DNA of 64,000 bases from Gammaproteobacteria bacterium. Lineage in GTDB: Bacteria; Pseudomonadota; Gammaproteobacteria; JAABTG01. The stretch covers positions 1,364,001 to 1,428,000 of the forward strand of contig JAXHLS010000002.1 in NCBI GenBank assembly GCA_034522055.1, written 5' to 3'. The position numbers and the translations under genes are program-made. Shown piece by piece: positions 19,475 to 29,148 of this stretch (position 1 is its first letter; every line of letters starts with the position of its first letter). Under the pieces are notes generated by a model. That model saw only the letters and a program-made list of their open reading frames with translations. It was not told the DNA's origin and did not search any database.

Positions 19475-20311
19475 TCAGGGCTTTCGAAAATGCATGATGC
19501 CCCAGGCGAGATAGCCGTTGGCGCCGGCATCCACCCAGTGGCCCAGGCCCTTGATCATGCGGTCGATGTAATCCTCGGACACCTTGCCCTCGAGGGCCTC
19601 CCGGTGGTTGGCGAGTTCCTGGCGCACGCGGGTGTAGTGACGCACCAGCTGGGGCGTCAGGTCCTCGATCTCCACCTCCTGCCAGCCAAGGCGCGCGGCC
19701 TGCTCGCGATAGAAGGCGAAGGAACCCAGGCTATCCAGGTGGATGCGCTCCAGCACGGGATCGATGACCCCCGGGGGACAGTCGTCCGCCTGCATGGGAT
19801 CCGTGAACAGGATGTCACCGCCGGGCTTCAGCACCCGGTCCACCTCGTCCAGCACGCGGGCCCGCTGGCCCGAGTGGAGAATAGAGTCCTGGGACCAGGC
19901 GACATCGAAGCTGCCGTCGGCGGAAGGGATCTCCTCGAAGCTGCCGTCGATGACCTCCATGAGGTGACTGAGCCCCTGCTGTTCCGAGATCTCGCGATTG
20001 CGCCGGTTCTGGGCCTCGCTGAGGTTCAGGCAGGTGACGTGGCACCCGAAGGTGCGGGCCAGCCAGCGGCCCGCACCGCCATAGCCGGCTCCCAGGTCGA
20101 TGACCCGATGCTCCGGCCCCAGGCCCTTGAGGCGTGCGCCAATGGTGGCCACGGTGCGCTCCGATGCCACCCGGATGTCCTCGTCATCCGACTGGTAGAT
20201 GCCCACATGGATGTCCTCGCCACCCCAGATGTGGAAATAGAAGTTGTCCGCGTCGTCGCTGTTGTAGTACTCCCGCGCGGTGCTGACGACTTCAGAATAA
20301 TTGGCACTCAT
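19475..20311 (-). CDS. Sarcosine/dimethylglycine N-methyltransferase (SDMT)
   Basis: 278 residues. It uses SAM to methylate sarcosine and dimethylglycine, the last two steps of glycine betaine synthesis from glycine. SAM motif I is VIDLGAGYGGAGRWLA (about residues 70-85). The N-terminal stretch YYNSDDADNFYFHIWGGEDI is a signature of the Ectothiorhodospira/Halorhodospira-type SDMT, and the C-terminus ends in YLAWGIMHFRK as in homologues. Its start overlaps the GSMT stop by four bases (ATGA), which supports translational coupling. The genes together give de novo betaine, a major osmoprotectant of halophilic sulfur bacteria. Confidence 0.95.
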   Translation of the reverse strand: MSANYSEVVSTAREYYNSDDADNFYFHIWGGEDIHVGIYQSDDEDIRVASERTVATIGARLKGLGPEHRVIDLGAGYGGAGRWLARTFGCHVTCLNLSEAQNRRNREISEQQGLSHLMEVIDGSFEEIPSADGSFDVAWSQDSILHSGQRARVLDEVDRVLKPGGDILFTDPMQADDCPPGVIDPVLERIHLDSLGSFAFYREQAARLGWQEVEIEDLTPQLVRHYTRVRQELANHREALEGKVSEDYIDRMIKGLGHWVDAGANGYLAWGIMHFRKP

Positions 20312-21123
20312 TCCGTGTCCTCCTCGATGTATTTCTTCTCGGCCACATGGATGAAGAAGTCCGGCTCACCCTCCTTGTAGGTCTCCTTGAAGTCGCCATA
20401 GGTGGTGACGCGCTGGAAACCCACCTCCTTCATGAGGCGCTGGGTATAGGCCTTGCGCAGCGGGAACATGTTGAGGTGATAGGTGGATCCGTCGCTGAAT
20501 TCATAGCGGAAGCGGGCCAGGGACTCGTCCACATGCTCCGGGGTGGCGGACACGTCGTCGCCGCAATAGTAATAGTTGTGGGAGGGCTCCACCTGATGGT
20601 CCAGCAGGGCATCGTAGTTGCGCTGGTCCAGGATCAGGATGCCGTCATGACGCAGGGTGGCGTAGTACTCCGCCAGGGCCTTGCGGCGGTCCTTCTCGCT
20701 GTGGAGATGGGTGAAGGAGTTGCCGAGGCAGATCACCGCATCATACAGATCGTGGACGTCCTGGTTGAGCCAGCGCCAGTCGGCGTGGACGGTACGCAGG
20801 ATCTGGCCCCTCTTGCGGGCGTTCTCGAAGGCCTTGGCCAGCATCTCGGGGCTGCCGTCGGCGCTGGTGACTTCGAAACCGGCCTGCATCAGGCGCACGG
20901 AATGGAACCCCGTACCCGTGGCCACGTCGAGGACCTTCTTCGCCCCGTGCTTGCGCAACTCCTCGATGAAGAACTCACCCTCGGCCTCGGCGCGGCCCTC
21001 CCAGTCGATGAGGTCGTCCCATTTCTGGACGAAAGAGTGGACGTATTCCTCGGTGTACTGGTCCGTCTCGCGGACATCGAGGGGGTTGGCTCCGTAATCC
21101 TGTTCTTTATGGACGTTTAACAT
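20308..21123 (-). CDS. Glycine/sarcosine N-methyltransferase (GSMT)
   Basis: 271 residues. It catalyses glycine to sarcosine to dimethylglycine with SAM, the first two steps of the betaine pathway. The SAM-binding loop is VLDVATGTGFHS (about residues 65-76). The N-terminus TDQYTEEYVHSF and the Tyr/His-rich part near NYYYCGDD match the halophile GSMT family. AGGAGAT lies about six bases before the ATG at 21123. The gene begins 201 bp downstream of the amidotransferase gene, with a GC hairpin between, so it may be read from its own promoter or from the upstream cluster. Confidence 0.95.
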   Translation of the reverse strand: MLNVHKEQDYGANPLDVRETDQYTEEYVHSFVQKWDDLIDWEGRAEAEGEFFIEELRKHGAKKVLDVATGTGFHSVRLMQAGFEVTSADGSPEMLAKAFENARKRGQILRTVHADWRWLNQDVHDLYDAVICLGNSFTHLHSEKDRRKALAEYYATLRHDGILILDQRNYDALLDHQVEPSHNYYYCGDDVSATPEHVDESLARFRYEFSDGSTYHLNMFPLRKAYTQRLMKEVGFQRVTTYGDFKETYKEGEPDFFIHVAEKKYIEEDTE

Positions 21124-21324: not shown

Positions 21325-23334
21325 CTACGGATGCCAGCCCAACTGCCGGGCCTGCTCGCGGGCACGCCTGGGGATATCCCCCTTCACGAAATCCCTGTGA
21401 AGGATCTGGACGCCCAGCAGATGATTGATAAGCGCATCCAATTGGATCTGCGCCGCCGCCGTGGTATTGGGCGACTCGTGCTCCTCGAAGACCCCCGCCA
21501 CGCCATCCACGTTCAGCAGACCGGCATCTTCGATGGCCTGGGGACTGAGATGGCGGTCGGCAAGCACACGCATGGCCTGCCATTTCCTGGGATCGGTATG
21601 GGCGGGCGGCGCCATGAAGGCGAACTTCTCCCGCTTGTAGAGGGTATCGGGCAGGAGCCCCTTCATGGCCTCCCGTAACACGTACTTCTCGATGCGCCCG
21701 TGGATGCGCATGGTCGGCGGCAGGGTCGCCGCGAACTCCGCCAGATGATGGTCCAGGAAGGGCGGCCGGGCCTCCATGGAATTGGCCATGTCCACCCGGT
21801 CACCCCCCCAGGTGAGGATCTGTCCCTCCAGCATGGTCTTGATCCAGACGTACTGGGCCTTGTCCAAGGGATGCCGGCCCCGCAGGGCCTCGCTGTTCAG
21901 TTCCCGGGCGATGGCCTCGCCGGGGTCATAGCCCCTCAGGGCCTCGCGATGATCGTGGTGCAGCACGGCGGGCACCCGGGCGCTGCTGGCCAGCCACGGC
22001 TGCAGGCATGAGGGCGTGAAGCCGATGAGACTGTCCAGGGCCGGGTTATGTACCTCCTCCTCGGCCAGCATGGCGCCGCGGAAGGTCTCGTTGCTGTCGG
22101 ACAGTATGCGTTCCCATTCGCGCCGCTCGTCCGCCGGCAGGTGATCCAGGCCGTGGCGGAACATGTCGCGGCGAAATGCCGGGTAACCGCCGAACAGCTC
22201 GTCCGAGCCCTCGCCCGTCATCACCACCTTGTAGCCCACCTCGTTGACCCGCCGGCTCATGAGCAGCTTGGCCACCCCCAGGGTGTTGTAGATGGTGCGC
22301 TCGGTGTGCCACAGGGTCTCCTCGAAGTGCTCGTAGAGATGGCCCGACTCGATGCGCAGGATCTCCTGGTCGGCCCCCGTGGCCTCGGCCATCTCGGTGG
22401 CGATGGGGGTCTCGTCGTAGACCTCGCTGTCGAAGCCGATGGTGAAGGCCTTGACGGGATTCTGGGAGGCCGCGGCCGCGAGGCCGAGGATGGAGCAGGA
22501 ATCGATGCCCCCGGACAAATAGCAGCCCACCGGCACGTCGGCGGTCATGCGCAGTTGCACCGCGTCGACCAACTGCTCGCGGGTGCCCTCGATCCAGGGG
22601 GCCTCATCGGCTACGTGGATACGACTGGCATCCTCTTCGGGGAAGGGCACGTCCCAGTAGCACCATTCCTTGACATCCAGCCGGCCGTCCCGGCGGCGCA
22701 CCGTCAGCACGTGGCCGGGCTGCACCTGCCGGACCCCGGCGAAGGCCGTCTGGCCGGGCACCACCGTCTGCATCAGCTGGTGGAACAGGCCCGCGGAATC
22801 GAAGCGACATTCCACCTCGGGATGGGCGAAGATCACCTTGAGTTCCGAGCCGAACACCACGCCGCCGTCGATCTCGGTCCAGTACAGGGGCTTGATGCCG
22901 AAACGGTCGCGCACCAGGTGGAGGGTATCCTCGTCGCGGTCATAGAGGGCAAAGGCGAACTCGCCCCGCAGGTGGGGCACGGTGCCCTCCATGCCCAGGC
23001 GCGGGTGGAGATGCATGACGATTTCGGAATCGCTCTTGGTGCGGAACACCGCCCCCCGCGCCGTCAGATCGGCGCGGATACGCTGATAGTCGTAGAGTTC
23101 GCCGTTCTTGGTCAGCATGAGGCGCTTGTCCGCGCTGACGAAGGGCTGGCGCCCCCGGTTCTGGTCGAGGTCGATGATGGACAGCCGCGCGTGGCTCAAG
23201 CCCACCCCCTCCATGGCCTGCCAGCCGTAGCCGTCGGGGCCGCGGTGGTATTGGATGGCCGCCATGGCCACCAGGGTCTCGGGATCGACGGGGCGTTCCC
23301 GATCGGCGTAGATGTATCCTGCGATTCCGCACAT
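21325..23334 (-). CDS. Glutamine-dependent amidotransferase, asparagine synthase (AsnB) family
   Basis: 669 residues, longer than E. coli AsnB (about 554). The N-terminal glutaminase domain has the catalytic Cys2 (MCGIAGYIYADRE) and the RLSIIDL and NGELYDY motifs. The synthetase domain has the PP-loop SGGIDS in VGCYLSGGIDSCSILGLA (about residue 260) and the downstream GEGSDELFGGYPAF. It should transfer glutamine-derived ammonia to an adenylated carboxylate. The stop-to-start spacing to the carbamoyltransferase-like gene is only nine bases, so the two are co-expressed. Ordinary asparagine synthesis is possible, but the neighbours suggest another amino-acid amide (see findings). Confidence 0.9.
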   Translation of the reverse strand: MCGIAGYIYADRERPVDPETLVAMAAIQYHRGPDGYGWQAMEGVGLSHARLSIIDLDQNRGRQPFVSADKRLMLTKNGELYDYQRIRADLTARGAVFRTKSDSEIVMHLHPRLGMEGTVPHLRGEFAFALYDRDEDTLHLVRDRFGIKPLYWTEIDGGVVFGSELKVIFAHPEVECRFDSAGLFHQLMQTVVPGQTAFAGVRQVQPGHVLTVRRRDGRLDVKEWCYWDVPFPEEDASRIHVADEAPWIEGTREQLVDAVQLRMTADVPVGCYLSGGIDSCSILGLAAAASQNPVKAFTIGFDSEVYDETPIATEMAEATGADQEILRIESGHLYEHFEETLWHTERTIYNTLGVAKLLMSRRVNEVGYKVVMTGEGSDELFGGYPAFRRDMFRHGLDHLPADERREWERILSDSNETFRGAMLAEEEVHNPALDSLIGFTPSCLQPWLASSARVPAVLHHDHREALRGYDPGEAIARELNSEALRGRHPLDKAQYVWIKTMLEGQILTWGGDRVDMANSMEARPPFLDHHLAEFAATLPPTMRIHGRIEKYVLREAMKGLLPDTLYKREKFAFMAPPAHTDPRKWQAMRVLADRHLSPQAIEDAGLLNVDGVAGVFEEHESPNTTAAAQIQLDALINHLLGVQILHRDFVKGDIPRRAREQARQLGWHP

Positions 23335-23343
23335 GATTATTGG

Positions 23344-24402
23344 TTACGCAAAGCTCTTCAAAATCGTTGAAAGGAGCGCCATGCGCATATACACGGCGCC
23401 GCGGGCCTGGGCGAAGTACCAGTTATGGGGCGTGGCATCGAGGTCGCGGGACAGCTCTTCGCCGCGCGCCAGGGGATGCATGATGATGGCGTCGGGCTTG
23501 AGGGGCGAGTCGGCATCCAGACGATAACGGGCCCCCAGTTCCTCGTAGTTGCCACTCACCCAGGCGATGGCGTTGATGTAGATCACGTCGAGGTGGGGCA
23601 ACTCGGCGTCGAAATCCTGTGTCGTGCGTACCTTGAGGCCCACCTCCTCCAGTTCTTCCCGCTGCCCCTCGGCGAAGGGCTCCTGCTCGTCGCTCACCAC
23701 CACCAGCTCTTCCAGGGCGGGGGCGAACAGGGACAGGTAGATGAGCAGGCTGCGCACCGTACGCATGCGCCCCGGCACCCCCACGATGCCGAAACGGATC
23801 TTCTCCGTGAGATCGATATCGTCGCCGCACAGCTCCGGGCGCCATTTCAGCAGGGCGTAGATATCCGCCATCGCCTGGGTGGGATGCTCGTCGGTGCCGT
23901 TGCCGGCATTGACGATGGGTACGCGCAGGGACTCCAGCATCTCATACACCGCCTGTTCGTCGCCGTCTCTCAACACCACCAGGTCGCCGTAGTGATTGAG
24001 CATCTCGCCGATGTCATAGAGCGACTCCCCCTTGGCGATGCCGGTGGAGGCCGGATCGGTGATGGACATGATGTCCCCGCCCAGGCGGTGCCAGGCGCTC
24101 TCGAAGGACAGTCGGGTGCGCGTACTGGGCTCGTAGAACGCGCTGATCAGGATCTTGCCCGTGAGGGGCCGCACCTGATGCTGAGGCTGGGTCTCGTAGC
24201 GGGCAGCCAGGCGGGTGAGCTGCAGCAGCTGCTGGCGGCTGAACTGCCGTGCAGACACCACCGGCCGGTTCACCAGGTCCAGCAGGTGGGTCAGATCCTC
24301 CGGGATCCTGTCCAGCAGGGCGCGCGGGCGCTCGAAGCCCTGGACATCCAGCGGCTGCTCCTCCAGGGGATCGCGCAATCGGGGGTTGAGATGGTTCACC
24401 AC
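23344..24402 (-). CDS. Aspartate/ornithine carbamoyltransferase-family protein, probably with a different substrate
   Basis: 352 residues from a GTG start, with an N-terminal extension of about 40 residues before the fold. The carbamoyl-phosphate site is intact: FYEPSTRTRLSFESA, the KGESLYD lysine (E. coli PyrB Lys84), VLRDG (Arg105) and DEHPTQA (His134/Gln137). The aspartate-binding strand, in PyrB MTRVQKER with Arg229 and Gln231, reads INAIAWVSGN here, and the HPLPR loop reads HPLARG. A second amino-acid substrate other than aspartate is therefore likely. The frame overlaps a 40-codon membrane peptide gene upstream and runs nine bases into the amidotransferase. It is unlikely to be the housekeeping pyrB. 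Confidence 0.85.
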   Translation of the reverse strand: MVNHLNPRLRDPLEEQPLDVQGFERPRALLDRIPEDLTHLLDLVNRPVVSARQFSRQQLLQLTRLAARYETQPQHQVRPLTGKILISAFYEPSTRTRLSFESAWHRLGGDIMSITDPASTGIAKGESLYDIGEMLNHYGDLVVLRDGDEQAVYEMLESLRVPIVNAGNGTDEHPTQAMADIYALLKWRPELCGDDIDLTEKIRFGIVGVPGRMRTVRSLLIYLSLFAPALEELVVVSDEQEPFAEGQREELEEVGLKVRTTQDFDAELPHLDVIYINAIAWVSGNYEELGARYRLDADSPLKPDAIIMHPLARGEELSRDLDATPHNWYFAQARGAVYMRMALLSTILKSFA

Positions 24403-24518
24403 AGATGTCCTCGCTTCCAGTCACGAATCAGCAGGCCAAGCAGCAGGATCGGGGCGACGACGGTGACCGCGAGGGCCGCCAGCACCAGGATCTCGAAGGC
24501 TCCGGAAGAAATGGTCAT
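24396..24518 (-). CDS. 40-residue single-span membrane peptide
   Basis: A short gene that starts in an ATGA overlap with the symporter stop and ends inside the start region of the carbamoyltransferase-like gene (TGA at 24396-24398). It encodes MTISSGAFEIL followed by one hydrophobic helix (LVLAALAVTVVAPILLLGLL) and a short basic tail IRDWKRGHLW. Sodium/solute symporters often have a tiny partner subunit encoded next to them, so it may be an accessory of the transporter at 24515. The tight overlaps on both sides support translation. Confidence 0.7.
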   Translation of the reverse strand: MTISSGAFEILVLAALAVTVVAPILLLGLLIRDWKRGHLW

Positions 24519-25981
24519 GTCATTGCCCCTCCATCTGCGCCAGGCATCTGCGCCGGGTGGGTCTCGTTCAGGGTCTCCCAGTCGAACATGCGGGGCGCCA
24601 GCCAGGTGGAGAGCAGCACACAGGCCATGGATACCGCGGCACCCACCAGGGCGGCCACGTAGAAACCGATGGCGAAATAGCCGTAGAGGCCGGCGGCGCT
24701 GCCCAGCACCATGCCGGCGATGGCGCCGGTGGGGTTCACGCGCCGCCAGAACAGCCCCGCGGCGATGGGCCAGATGGTGCTGGCCACGAAGGCGCCGGTG
24801 AAATAGAGCAACTCCGCCAGGGTGGTGAGGCGCGGCGCGCACAGCAGCCACGTCAGCACCCCGAGACCGACGATGATCCACGAGGTGGCACGCCGCATCT
24901 CGGTGGCGCTGGCGTGGGGCTTGAAATGGCGCCGGTAGATATCCTCCACCACCAGGATGCTGGTGGCCGCCAGCAGGGAGTCGAGGCTGGACGACAGGGC
25001 CGAGAACACCATGATGAGCACCAGCACCGCCCCCGTGACCCCGAGGATCTTGGCCGCCACCATGGGTCCCACCATGTCGGCGGCGGGTACGTTGAGGGCC
25101 AGGGCCGGCGTGGCCAGGGCCACGAAGCCCGCGACCACCGGGATGGGGGCCCACAGGATGCCGGCGAGGGTGTAGGCCTTGAAGCCCACCCCGGGCCGGA
25201 AAGAGAAGGCGCGACTCCACCACACGTTGGAGTGGAAGATCTCGCCCACGCCGAACAGCAGGTTGTTGAACAGGAACATGATGGCCGCCGGCATCATCAG
25301 GTTGAGCAGCTCCGGGCGTTCCTCCAGCACCGTCTGATGGATCTCGTCGAACCCCACCTTCTCGATGGCGAGGAAGGCGATGACCACCAGCCCCGACAGG
25401 ATCAGCAGGGCCTGGATGAAATCGGTGCCGATGACCGCGCGGAAGCCCCCCAGAAGAGTATAGGCCACGCAGATGGTGAGGATGACCGTCATGCCGTAAT
25501 GGTAGGGGATGCCGGTGAGGGCATGGATGAGGATCCCCCCGGCCATGCCCATGCTCACCAGCCAGCCCAGGCTGTAGAACAGGGAGATGGCGAGGAACAC
25601 CCGCCACGCCGTATTGCCGTAACGGATGCGCACGAAATCGCCGCTGGTATAGCCGTTGGGCATGAGCCTGCGGATACGCCGCGCCAGGGGCGCGAACATC
25701 AACAGGCCCACCGAGCCCAGGGAGTACCCCAGCATGCCCCAGATCCCCATCTGGAAGGCGAGCTGGGGCGCCGCCATGGTGGTGTTGCTGGTCACCCAGG
25801 TGGCCATGGCGGTGGCGGTACCGAGAGCGAGGCCCACGCCCCGCCCCGCCAGCACGTAGTCGTCCAGCTTCTTGGCATGACGCCCCCAGTACCAGCCCAG
25901 GGCCACCCACACCATGCTGAACAGGGCGAGGATCAGCCAGCCGATGCGGGCATCCAGGATGGCGCTGTTGACGGCATTCAT
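24515..25981 (-). CDS. Sodium/solute symporter (SSS, SLC5 family)
   Basis: 488 residues with about 13 membrane helices, the LeuT-fold SSS family that couples uptake of sugars, amino acids, choline or vitamins to sodium. Family landmarks include the sodium-site region near ATAMATWVTSNTTMAAP, the GGFRAVIGTDFIQ loop and the SALSSSLDSLLAATSI helix. The substrate cannot be read from the sequence. It overlaps the isochorismatase-like gene upstream by four bases and the 40-residue peptide downstream by four, so it is part of the same transcription unit. Uptake of the solute handled by the neighbouring enzymes is the simplest role. Confidence 0.92.
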   Translation of the reverse strand: MNAVNSAILDARIGWLILALFSMVWVALGWYWGRHAKKLDDYVLAGRGVGLALGTATAMATWVTSNTTMAAPQLAFQMGIWGMLGYSLGSVGLLMFAPLARRIRRLMPNGYTSGDFVRIRYGNTAWRVFLAISLFYSLGWLVSMGMAGGILIHALTGIPYHYGMTVILTICVAYTLLGGFRAVIGTDFIQALLILSGLVVIAFLAIEKVGFDEIHQTVLEERPELLNLMMPAAIMFLFNNLLFGVGEIFHSNVWWSRAFSFRPGVGFKAYTLAGILWAPIPVVAGFVALATPALALNVPAADMVGPMVAAKILGVTGAVLVLIMVFSALSSSLDSLLAATSILVVEDIYRRHFKPHASATEMRRATSWIIVGLGVLTWLLCAPRLTTLAELLYFTGAFVASTIWPIAAGLFWRRVNPTGAIAGMVLGSAAGLYGYFAIGFYVAALVGAAVSMACVLLSTWLAPRMFDWETLNETHPAQMPGADGGAMT

Positions 25982-26724
25982 GAGGTCACCACCTCCACCA
26001 GTTCCGCCAGGGCCTCTTCGGCGGTGAGGACGCGGGCGTAGCGATCCTTCATGGTGGTGATGGTGGCCTTCTGCAGGTCCGGGGTCACGGTGGCGCAGCC
26101 GTCGGCGATCAGGGTCACGTAGAAACCCAGATCACAGGCATCGCGAATCGCCGTGGACACGCACTCGTTGCTGTACACCCCCACCACGAACAGCCCGGTG
26201 ATGCCGAGGTTGCGCAGCAGGTATTCCAGGTTGGTCGAAGTGAACACCCCGCTCGCCGTCTTATTGAGGACGATCTCATCGCCCTGGGGCGCCACCTCCT
26301 CGAGGAACTCCGCCTCCTTGGAACCGGGCGGCGCGTGGAGGCCCAGCCGCTTGTGGCCGGCGCTGCGGTCCCGGCCATCGAGGGTGAGGGACTGGATGCG
26401 GGTGTGGATCACCTCCAGCTCGCGGCTGCGGAAGGCATCCTGGAGGCGCCGCACGTTGGGCAGCACCACGTACTCGAGGCGGTCGAAATAGTACTCCTGG
26501 GCCTCGGGCGGCACCCCCGAGGCCTCCACGTCGGCGAACACCCCGTAGTCCCGGGCCGCGTCCAGATACTGCATGTCGATACACAGCAGGGCGGTATGGT
26601 GGGTGGCCAGGGAGCGGGTGACGGCCGGCGAGTGGGTAATGGACTTGCGGTAGGTATCCCGCAGGGGATCCACGTCCAGAAAGTGCTTCACCTCCGTCGG
26701 TCTCGGGTTCATTTCGTCGCTCAT
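25978..26724 (-). CDS. Isochorismatase-like cysteine hydrolase (amidohydrolase)
   Basis: 248 residues from the ATG at 26724. The Asp-Lys-Cys triad is visible: Asp in LLCIDMQYLD (about residue 50), Lys in IVLNKTASGVF and nucleophile Cys in GVYSNECVSTAIRDAC. Family members hydrolyse amides or carbamoyl groups, for instance N-carbamoylsarcosine amidase, ureidoacrylate hydrolase and nicotinamidase. The N-terminal 40 residues are extra. Between the symporter and an N-carbamoyl-amino-acid hydrolase, removal of an amide or ureido nitrogen is the best guess. The four-base overlap with the symporter and 11 bp to the next gene indicate one operon. Confidence 0.88.
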   Translation of the reverse strand: MSDEMNPRPTEVKHFLDVDPLRDTYRKSITHSPAVTRSLATHHTALLCIDMQYLDAARDYGVFADVEASGVPPEAQEYYFDRLEYVVLPNVRRLQDAFRSRELEVIHTRIQSLTLDGRDRSAGHKRLGLHAPPGSKEAEFLEEVAPQGDEIVLNKTASGVFTSTNLEYLLRNLGITGLFVVGVYSNECVSTAIRDACDLGFYVTLIADGCATVTPDLQKATITTMKDRYARVLTAEEALAELVEVVTS

Positions 26725-26735
26725 GGTCCCGGCCC

Positions 26736-27971
26736 TCAGGCCGCCAGCCGGCGGATGGTGTTCAGCAGGACATTGGCACCCAGCTCGATGTCGTCCCAGG
26801 CGGTCCACTCGGCCGCGGAATGGCTGCGGCCCTCCTTGCTGGGCACGAAGATCATGCCCGACGGCGCGATGGCGGCGAGGATCTGGGCATCGTGGGCGGC
26901 GCCGCTGTGCAGCCGCATGGACTCCACCCCCGCCGCCGCCGCGGCCTGCTCCACCGCCCCCACCACCGTGGAGGCACACTGCACCGGCGCCACCTCGCTC
27001 AGCACCTGGAACTCGAACATCAGGTTGCGGCGCCGCGCGATGGCGGACAGGGTGCGCCGAAAGGCCTCCCCCAGGTGCCCCAGGGTCTCGGGATCGGTGT
27101 CCCGCACGTCCAGGGAGAATATGGCCTGGCCCGGCACCACGTTGGCCGCACCGGGCAGGAGCTGCACCCGCCCCACCGTGGCCACGCTGCGCGGGCTGCC
27201 ATGTTCCTCGAGGACGCGCTCGACCTCGGTGGCGAATTCGGCCAGCCCCAGCAGGGCATCCTGGCGCATGTTCATGGGGGTGGTGCCGGCATGGTTGGCC
27301 ACCCCGGTGAGGCGCACCTCCCACTTGAACAGGCCGGCGATGGCCTCCACCACTCCCAGGGAGATCCCCTTACGGTCCAGCACCGGACCCTGCTCGATGT
27401 GGAGTTCCACGTAGGCATGGATGGACTCGGGCCGGCGCTGGGCGCGCAGCGTGCTGTGGGCATCGAGACCGCGGGACGCCATGGCATCCACCAGGGTCAC
27501 CCCGGTCAGGTCGCGGGCCCCGTGGATATACTCTGGGGTCACTTGTCCCGCCATGGCCTGGGACCCCAGCAGACCGCCGAAGCGCCCCTCCTCGTCGGTG
27601 AAGGAAACGCCCTCCACGGGCCGGGACAAGGCCACACCCTGCTCCTTCAGCACCCGCAGCGCCTCCAGGGCACATACGACGCCCAGGGCGCCGTCCAGGT
27701 AACCCGACGCGGGTACGGTATCCAGGTGCGAACCCGACATCACGCTTGGCTTGCCCTCCTGCCAGCCGAGGCGCGCGAACAGGTTCGCGGCCCCGTCCTG
27801 GTGGAAATCCAGGCCCGCCGCCATTACCCGCTCCTGGAACCAGGCCCGGCCGGCCATGTCGCCGTCGGAGAAGGCCATGCGGTAGACGCCATGGTCCTCG
27901 CCGCGACCGATGCCGGAGAGTGCTTCCAGATCGGCGCGTAGCCGCTCGCCATTGACCCGTAATTCATCCAT
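26736..27971 (-). CDS. M20-family N-carbamoyl-L-amino-acid / allantoate amidohydrolase
   Basis: 411-residue zinc hydrolase of the HyuC/AllC branch of peptidase family M20, which releases carbon dioxide and ammonia from N-carbamoyl amino acids or ureides. Metal ligands are seen in SGSHLDTVPASGYLDGALG and FTDEEGRFGG, and a late His in RSHSAAEW. The dimerisation-domain motif ELHIEQGP and GVANHAGTTPM are diagnostic of the carbamoylase/allantoate group rather than of ordinary peptidases. The start overlaps the upstream membrane-protein stop by one base. With the isochorismatase-like enzyme it forms a likely ureide-degrading pair. Confidence 0.92.
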   Translation of the reverse strand: MDELRVNGERLRADLEALSGIGRGEDHGVYRMAFSDGDMAGRAWFQERVMAAGLDFHQDGAANLFARLGWQEGKPSVMSGSHLDTVPASGYLDGALGVVCALEALRVLKEQGVALSRPVEGVSFTDEEGRFGGLLGSQAMAGQVTPEYIHGARDLTGVTLVDAMASRGLDAHSTLRAQRRPESIHAYVELHIEQGPVLDRKGISLGVVEAIAGLFKWEVRLTGVANHAGTTPMNMRQDALLGLAEFATEVERVLEEHGSPRSVATVGRVQLLPGAANVVPGQAIFSLDVRDTDPETLGHLGEAFRRTLSAIARRRNLMFEFQVLSEVAPVQCASTVVGAVEQAAAAAGVESMRLHSGAAHDAQILAAIAPSGMIFVPSKEGRSHSAAEWTAWDDIELGANVLLNTIRRLAA

Positions 27972-28393
27972 CAGGATGCATCCTCCCGGGCGCCATGCAC
28001 GATGAGGCCGAGGGTGGACAGGAAGACGACGCCGCCGATGCCGAAGAACAGGAAGGCACGCGACAGGGGATGGTGCTCCACGGTCACCACCACGGCCTCA
28101 CTCCATGCCACCGGCCGGCCGTCTTCCAGGGCGGCGAGGCGAAAGTGGGAGATACCGTCGGGCTGCCCGGACAGAACGCGCGCGCGGTCGGGTCCCTCGT
28201 ATTCCGTCTGGGGGCTCTCGAATGCCGCCGTGGAGGCCCGCTCCAGGCGCACCAGGGGGGTCTCCGCCTGCCACTCGAGGCGGAAATAACCGGCGGTGGC
28301 CCGCGCCGCGTCGGTTTCGAGCACGGGGGCCGCCGCAACGGGCGCGACGGCCCCCAGCAGCAACGCCCAGGCGACGAGACGGCCGCGCGCCAC
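27971..28393 (-). CDS. Small secreted/membrane-anchored protein, first gene of the cluster
   Basis: 140 residues, function not recognised. A signal peptide (ARGRLVAWALLLGAVAPVAAA) is followed by a beta-rich domain of about 80 residues with a fibronectin-III-like look (YFRLEWQAETPLVRLERAS), then a C-terminal membrane helix (AFLFFGIGGVVFLSTLGLIV) and a short tail. A periplasmic domain anchored in the inner membrane is thus predicted. It is the first gene of the operon with the carbamoylase, so it is presumably regulated by the divergent MarR protein. A role in sensing or in helping the transporter is possible. Confidence 0.6.
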   Translation of the reverse strand: MARGRLVAWALLLGAVAPVAAAPVLETDAARATAGYFRLEWQAETPLVRLERASTAAFESPQTEYEGPDRARVLSGQPDGISHFRLAALEDGRPVAWSEAVVVTVEHHPLSRAFLFFGIGGVVFLSTLGLIVHGAREDAS

Positions 28394-28620: not shown

Positions 28621-29148
28621 ATGTCGAGCACCTCTCGGGTCGACGAGATCCTGATCGCCCTGCGCCGCGTCATGCGGGCAGTGGACCTGCATTCCCGCAG
28701 CCTGGTACAGACCCACGGCCTCACCGGCCCCCAGGCCCTCATTCTCAAAGCCTTGACCGACAAGCCCCTCATCGCGGGGGTGTTGGCGGAGCGCGTGAGC
28801 CTCAGTCAGGCCACGGTCACGGATATCCTGAACCGATTGGAGCAACGGAGTCTGATCAAACGCACACGCTCGGAGGAGGACCGCCGGCGGGTGATCGTGG
28901 AGGCCACGGGCGCCGGCAAGGCACTGCTCGCCACCTCGCCCCCGCTGCTGCAGGAGCGCTTCGCCAAGCGCTTCGAGGAACTGGCGGACTGGGAGCAGAC
29001 CACCCTGCTGGCCGCCCTGCAACGCATCGCCGCCATGATGGACGCCGAAGACCTGGATGCCGCGCCCCTGCTCTCCATCGGCTCCGTGCGGGCATCGCCC
29101 GAGGCCCTGAAGAGCGTCCTCGGGCCAGAGGAGGAGGCGCCCTCCTGA
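28621..29148 (+). CDS. MarR-family transcriptional regulator
   Basis: 175 residues, winged helix-turn-helix. The recognition region AERVSLSQATVTDILNRLEQRSLIKR and the wing RTRSEEDRRRVIVEATGAG are typical, flanked by the N- and C-terminal dimerisation helices. MarR proteins usually repress divergent genes and release DNA on binding a small ligand. It is divergent from the carbamoyl/amide cluster and shares its 227-bp promoter region, so it is likely that cluster's regulator. It is not adjacent to a drug pump. Confidence 0.92.
   Translation: MSSTSRVDEILIALRRVMRAVDLHSRSLVQTHGLTGPQALILKALTDKPLIAGVLAERVSLSQATVTDILNRLEQRSLIKRTRSEEDRRRVIVEATGAGKALLATSPPLLQERFAKRFEELADWEQTTLLAALQRIAAMMDAEDLDAAPLLSIGSVRASPEALKSVLGPEEEAPS

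Follow-up and report, generated by a model that had tools for sequence, protein, structure and literature searches.

The window analysed here, a 64,000-nucleotide stretch of a gammaproteobacterial contig (JAXHLS010000002.1 of assembly GCA_034522055.1), contains a minus-strand operon in which the gene of an ATCase-like carbamoyltransferase is followed, after nine bases (23335-23343), by that of an AsnB-type glutamine amidotransferase (Table 1). Upstream of this pair lie genes for a small hydrophobic protein, a sodium:solute symporter, an isochorismatase-fold amidohydrolase, an M20 hydrolase and a 140-aa protein, and beyond them stands a divergent MarR-type gene, which is also kept in Thiogranum-type loci, Kordiimonas and Thalassotalea. 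Downstream, 201 bases separate the amidotransferase gene from a pair of betaine methyltransferase genes. D50, K155 and C188 of the isochorismatase-fold protein were invariant in 47 homologues, and the metal-ligand residues of the M20 hydrolase were likewise invariant. The 40-aa reading frame, which is translationally coupled to the symporter and carbamoyltransferase genes and is missed by ordinary gene calling, possibly encodes a small symporter subunit. Homologues of the 140-aa protein were found in 46 loci, encoded either first in the cluster or just before the symporter.

Table 1. Genes of the cluster and its surroundings in the window, with the basis of each assignment
Feature	Position	Strand	Basis
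Sarcosine/dimethylglycine N-methyltransferase (betaine synthesis)	19475..20311	-	NF041675 407 bits, cut-off 550; linked in 6 related loci
Glycine/sarcosine N-methyltransferase (betaine synthesis), downstream, possibly own unit	20308..21123	-	Over NF051855 cut-off; linked in 6 related loci
AsnB-type glutamine amidotransferase, proposed N-carbamoyl-glutamine alpha-amide (CGA) synthase	21325..23334	-	Pfam, NCBIfam, own clade, active-site columns, model and fold search
ATCase-like carbamoyltransferase, proposed glutamine N-carbamoyltransferase	23344..24402	-	Below all NCBIfam equivalog cut-offs; active-site columns; ATCase fold
40-aa hydrophobic ORF between symporter and carbamoyltransferase	24396..24518	-	Homologues at same place in 44 related loci; no family match
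Sodium:solute symporter (SSS family), proposed CGA uptake	24515..25981	-	Pfam SSF; present in most loci
Isochorismatase-fold amidohydrolase, proposed CGA amide hydrolase	25978..26724	-	Pfam isochorismatase; nearest NCBIfam is biuret amidohydrolase, below cut-off
M20 N-carbamoyl-amino-acid hydrolase, proposed N-carbamoyl-glutamine hydrolase	26736..27971	-	Above NF006771 and TIGR01879 cut-offs
140-aa protein, signal-like N terminus, C-terminal hydrophobic segment; first operon gene	27971..28393	-	Homologues in 46 related loci; no family match
Divergent MarR-type gene, possible operon regulator	28621..29148	+	MarR-type models below cut-off

According to the list of open reading frames of the window, the amidotransferase consists of 669 residues and begins with MCGIAG. 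Pfam assigned its N-terminal part to GATase_7/GATase_6 (E about 1e-38) and its C-terminal part to Asn_synthase (E = 3e-90). An earlier sequence-only reading had described the glutaminase Cys2 and the PP-loop as intact, and residue alignment bore this out: Cys2, R50, N75, G76, E77 and D99 (numbered as in E. coli AsnB, Met = 1) were all kept, and the loop reads SGGIDS, which is of the SGGxDS type. By its PurF-type glutaminase with Cys2 and its SGGxDS synthetase domain, the protein is a member of the AsnB type. The same reading had drawn attention to a length of more than 100 residues beyond AsnB, which is correct with respect to the E. coli enzyme (554 aa, a difference of 115 aa); however, length alone is of little weight, since other AsnB-type proteins of this genome are also long (633 and 593 aa). 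In a fold search, an AlphaFold model of the amidotransferase (mean pLDDT 81) gave the hydroxyamidotransferase TsnB9, E. coli AsnB (1ct9) and human ASNS (6gq3) as best matches; the alignments behind this model and that of the carbamoyltransferase consisted of window and scan-derived locus sequences only. Against the NCBIfam models, the protein passed the broad TIGR01536 (423 bits, cut-off 267), a match that is not discriminating because XrtA and TIGR03104 amidotransferases pass it equally well (491 and 440 bits, respectively), and it scored below the cut-offs of NF006949 (asparagine synthase B: 258 bits, cut-off 499), TIGR03104 (NAGGN: 313 bits, cut-off 570) and TIGR03108 (XrtA/PEP-CTERM: 393 bits, cut-off 817).

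In a maximum-likelihood tree of 52 proteins, the sampled amidotransferases that are paired with a carbamoyltransferase, together with that of Thiorhodospira sibirica, formed a single branch with a support of 100/100, separate from E. coli AsnB, the TIGR03104 proteins and the XrtA amidotransferases; support within the clade was mixed, some outgroup branches were long, and the E. coli AsnB row carried a short upstream extension that is unlikely to affect its position. The outgroup closest to the clade, an amidotransferase 39% identical and on a long branch, is encoded on plasmid pMNOD02 of Methylobacterium nodulans (L139:37-2001), where it adjoins monooxygenase and acyl-CoA dehydrogenase genes. 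The sequence-only reading had proposed a comparison with AsnB and NAGGN-type synthases in which the aspartate-binding residues are mapped, and this comparison yielded, along with the clade of its own, a consistent replacement: in 64/64 clade members T322 of E. coli AsnB is changed to N, R325 is deleted and C523 is changed to N, and T323 stays T. These four positions are cited among the aspartate/ATP-binding residues of E. coli AsnB (PMC5775275), and all four residues are present in the E. coli-type AsnB of Pseudoalteromonas luteoviolacea. The residue losses speak against E. coli-type aspartate binding by the amidotransferase. By itself, however, the loss of the aspartate site is no proof of a new substrate, because proteins of other AsnB branches show it too, among them L142, which bears the annotation asparagine synthase, and for this reason we did not accept the absence of T322 and R325 as sole proof.

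The carbamoyltransferase, 352 residues long, was compared with its homologues column by column. The carbamoyl-phosphate site (S52, T53, R54, T55, K84, R105, H134 and Q137) and R167 (ATCase numbering) were invariant in 70/70, R229 was replaced by A, S or T in 69/70, Q231 by A in 65/70 and P268 by A in 70/70. In ATCase, R167 contacts the alpha-carboxylate of aspartate, and R229 and Q231 contact its beta-carboxylate. Judged by these columns, the enzyme keeps the residues for carbamoyl phosphate and the alpha-carboxylate but no longer has a site for the beta-carboxylate of aspartate, a pattern that points to an alpha-amino acid acceptor whose side chain is uncharged and whose alpha-carboxylate is free; the side chain is not fixed by the carbamoyltransferase sequence, and glutamine is not singled out. 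A structural model (mean pLDDT 87) matched the fold of PALA-bound ATCase. The protein resembles PyrB in its fold and its complete carbamoyl-phosphate site, but it differs in the lost beta-carboxylate residues, in an N terminus about 47 aa longer than that of E. coli PyrB and in its score (186 bits versus a cut-off of 263). As PyrB and ArgF are encoded separately in this genome and the aspartate site is lost, the role of PyrB was rejected. The same genome also encodes a second unusual carbamoyltransferase-fold protein, 37% identical to that of the window (L083:973-2124, minus strand; C2:413739-414158 core), which adjoins ABC-transporter-like genes. Its carbamoyl-phosphate motif is broken (R54 to H, K84 to H and Q137 to N), and it is possibly a non-catalytic or re-purposed relative.

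A genome-collection scan with the carbamoyltransferase as query gave 71 loci, 69 of which were counted after leaving out a distant ATCase-like match (L077) and a cut fragment (L076). The carbamoyltransferase and amidotransferase genes were adjacent and co-directional in 62/69 loci. In two others (L048 and L060) only the M20 and isochorismatase genes lay between them in the same operon, in four the contig ended at the pair (two of these still showing the start of the amidotransferase), and in one, T. sibirica, the pair was unlinked, the amidotransferase (67.7% identical) being encoded elsewhere in the genome. When an even sample of 369 genomes of the class was examined, the carbamoyltransferase was found in 22 and the amidotransferase in the same 22 (Fisher's test, p about 1e-34 without correction for phylogeny), and the one further amidotransferase match was a contig-edge fragment from the window's own genus. 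The nine-base spacing, from which the sequence-only reading had argued for a common pathway, is as measured in the window, and the neighbourhood is beyond chance by the counts above, but the gap varies in size among loci (median about 95 bases). Carriers of the pair included Gammaproteobacteria, Alteromonas among them, Alphaproteobacteria, cyanobacteria, one spirochaete MAG and one Bacteroidota MAG, and the amidotransferase was 59-74% identical across phyla; the named isolates among the carriers come, as far as is known, from marine, saline or soda-lake habitats. Neither protein had a close relative in searches of plasmids. The core pair was the conserved part of the cluster, whereas several loci lacked the M20 and isochorismatase genes or had others in their place. 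In three distant lineages a P-II nitrogen sensor gene lay directly upstream of the cluster (L060:7616-7960, L073:5649-5978 and L048:7545-7847), an arrangement that suits a glutamine-consuming pathway.

N-carbamoyl-glutamine amide (CGA), an osmolyte that protects against salt, was described in the purple bacterium Ectothiorhodospira marismortui by Galinski and Oren in 1991, as cited in PMC1224877 and PMC3857566, and the latter presents it as a minor solute known so far from one organism. The type strain of this species is DSM 4180, with genome FOUO (PMC8877833); in the collection it appears under the name E. mobilis DSM 4180. That the 1991 work was carried out on exactly this strain we infer from its being the type strain. 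On contig FOUO01000006 of this genome (L029) the genes for the M20 hydrolase, the isochorismatase-fold protein, the carbamoyltransferase and the amidotransferase stand one after another, so that the candidate pair is present in the CGA-making species. E. mobilis DSM 237 has the cluster as well. Besides the carbamoyltransferase gene of the cluster, the genome has only two others of the family, three in all, and these two we take to be argF and pyrB. The symporter was not seen in the Ectothiorhodospira loci, E. marismortui included, and its lack of linkage in the known producer weighs against the CGA reading. T. sibirica, which carries both the carbamoyltransferase and the amidotransferase gene, appears in the survey of Imhoff (PMC7824335) as an organism without annotated osmotic-stress genes, for which CGA is named as a possible solute. 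Full-text searches of open-licence papers found no gene or enzyme for CGA, and in the literature searched there was no report of CGA from carriers other than E. marismortui. The solutes described for Thioalkalivibrio are betaine and, in some strains, sucrose, with no CGA reported, and the published table of salt-induced nitrogen genes of T. versutus D301 lists nitrogen assimilation genes, the cluster not being among them.

From glutamine the two activities would yield CGA, our proposed product, and we put the probability that the pair synthesises this compound at about 0.7. The carbamoyltransferase would carbamoylate L-glutamine at its alpha-amino group, with carbamoyl phosphate as donor, giving N-carbamoyl-glutamine; the amidotransferase would then activate the alpha-carboxyl group of this intermediate with ATP as an acyl-AMP, and ammonia from a second glutamine, released at Cys2, would displace AMP to give CGA. 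With both charges of the amino acid masked in this way, the product would be a neutral solute rich in nitrogen. Its import or retrieval would fall to the Na+ symporter, and at falling salt it would be converted back to glutamine by the isochorismatase-fold amidohydrolase and the M20 carbamoylase. Carbamoylation first and amidation second is the order that the residues suggest, because the carbamoyltransferase pattern implies an acceptor with a free alpha-carboxylate. The sequence-only reading had offered two substrates for amidation, glutamine and its carbamoyl derivative, without identifying the product with a known osmolyte or mentioning an organism that makes it. Carbamoyl-glutamine is now well supported at the level of sequence, by the clade, the residue loss, the co-occurrence and the presence in a known CGA producer, whereas free glutamine is less favoured, since the carbamoyltransferase keeps the arginine for the alpha-carboxylate. 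With somewhat less confidence, we also consider it probable that the cluster represents the first set of candidate genes for CGA, a self-contained module for making, importing and recycling the compound built from a re-purposed ATCase and AsnB, and that CGA is thus a widespread but overlooked osmolyte among Gammaproteobacteria of the sea and of soda lakes and also in some Alphaproteobacteria, cyanobacteria, spirochaetes and Bacteroidota.

The proposed pathway has a counterpart in that of NAGGN (AsnO and Ngg, PA3459-PA3460; TIGR03104 and TIGR03103), in which AsnO, an AsnB-type enzyme, amidates a masked glutamine dipeptide as the last step (PMC8070244). In both, an AsnB-type enzyme would mask the alpha-carboxyl group of an N-blocked glutamine derivative last, giving a neutral osmolyte, and a divergent MarR gene stands at the P. 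aeruginosa operon as it does at that of the window. The two differ in that the window amidotransferase belongs to a separate clade and stays far below the NAGGN cut-off, in that the N-blocking enzyme is a carbamoyltransferase here and the GNAT-type Ngg there, and in that a single glutamine rather than a dipeptide would be used; no Ngg (TIGR03103) was found in the cluster or over the cut-off in the genome. The XrtA/PEP-CTERM amidotransferase (TIGR03108) is likewise of AsnB type and of similar length, and the genome's own member (L001, 1073 bits) is 33% identical to the window protein, which nevertheless falls well short of that family's cut-off and lies in a separate clade. Assignment to either family was rejected on scores and tree, the genome having its own members of both. 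With AsnB and ASNS the protein shares the two-domain architecture, the Cys2 glutaminase, the SGGxDS loop and the fold, but it differs from E. coli AsnB in its additional 115 aa, an identity of about 29%, the replacement of T322, R325 and C523, its clade and its linkage to a carbamoyltransferase. A TIGR03104-branch protein scoring 961 bits is encoded elsewhere in this genome (L004:1480-3261, minus strand; C2:3276134-3277168 core), which has no Ngg over the cut-off, and E. marismortui also has a protein of that branch (L092); as no more than a guess, L004 may make another amide, for example glutathione amide.

Among the alternatives, the one that fares best, although we regard it as unlikely, is that the same two-step logic leads in all or some lineages to another N-carbamoyl amino-acid amide, derived for example from asparagine or a different uncharged amino acid. 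It would agree with carbamoyltransferase residues that indicate an uncharged side chain without singling out glutamine, and with literature in which E. marismortui is the only carrier reported to contain CGA; however, E. marismortui is known to make CGA and has no other candidate pair, and the strong conservation of both proteins across phyla suggests one product. Distinctly less probable is a catabolic cluster that scavenges carbamoyl- or hydantoin-type nitrogen by means of the symporter, the M20 hydrolase and the amidohydrolase, with the pair running the route or capturing its products. Three of the genes are indeed of transport or hydrolysis type, but it is the core pair that is conserved while the M20 and isochorismatase genes come and go, an amidotransferase that spends ATP would be of little use in a degradative route, and some loci have linked genes for betaine synthesis. 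Slightly more doubtful still is a reversed order, in which the amidotransferase makes the alpha-amide of glutamine first and the carbamoyltransferase then carbamoylates it; gene set and end product would be identical, but the invariant R167 implies that the acceptor should have a free alpha-carboxylate, and amidation is likewise the final step towards NAGGN (PMC8070244).

The supply of asparagine bears on the last alternative. GatB is present in this genome and no AsnS was found over the cut-off, so that asparagine can be made on tRNA. No protein over the cut-off for E. coli-type AsnB was found among those tested in this genome; P. luteoviolacea has such an AsnB in addition to its paired-clade amidotransferase. 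Since the tRNA route is available here and P. luteoviolacea has a separate enzyme, the amidotransferase is not needed for asparagine. That the protein is an ordinary asparagine synthetase lying next to the carbamoyltransferase by chance, as its TIGR01536 match and the want of an E. coli-type AsnB among the tested proteins might indicate, is very improbable and was rejected on the separate clade (TIGR01536 passing XrtA and TIGR03104 proteins too), the lost aspartate-site residues, the 22/22 co-occurrence and the GatB/AsnS result. The sequence-only reading had named clear membership of the asparagine-producing AsnB clade with all aspartate-site residues, combined with the lack of a second asparagine synthetase, as grounds for giving up its proposal. 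The second part does apply, as the genome has no second classical AsnB, but the objection has no force in substance, because clade and residues are unlike those of AsnB and the tRNA-dependent route to asparagine is available. Its claim that the enzyme serves the pathway of the carbamoyltransferase rather than general asparagine supply is supported by the separate clade, the residue loss, the near-obligate co-occurrence, GatB without an AsnS over the cut-off and the presence in the CGA producer.

If the assignment of the pair to CGA synthesis is true, a question that has stood open for more than 30 years, since CGA was described in 1991, would become testable with two purified proteins, and it would be a mistake to annotate the genes of this clade as asparagine synthase and aspartate carbamoyltransferase. 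Production of CGA, which has four nitrogen atoms per molecule, would be predicted for many haloalkaliphiles and marine bacteria, among them Thioalkalivibrio, the biodesulfurization bacterium, and marine Synechococcus. Two enzymes of primary metabolism would then have been re-purposed together, in parallel to the NAGGN pathway.
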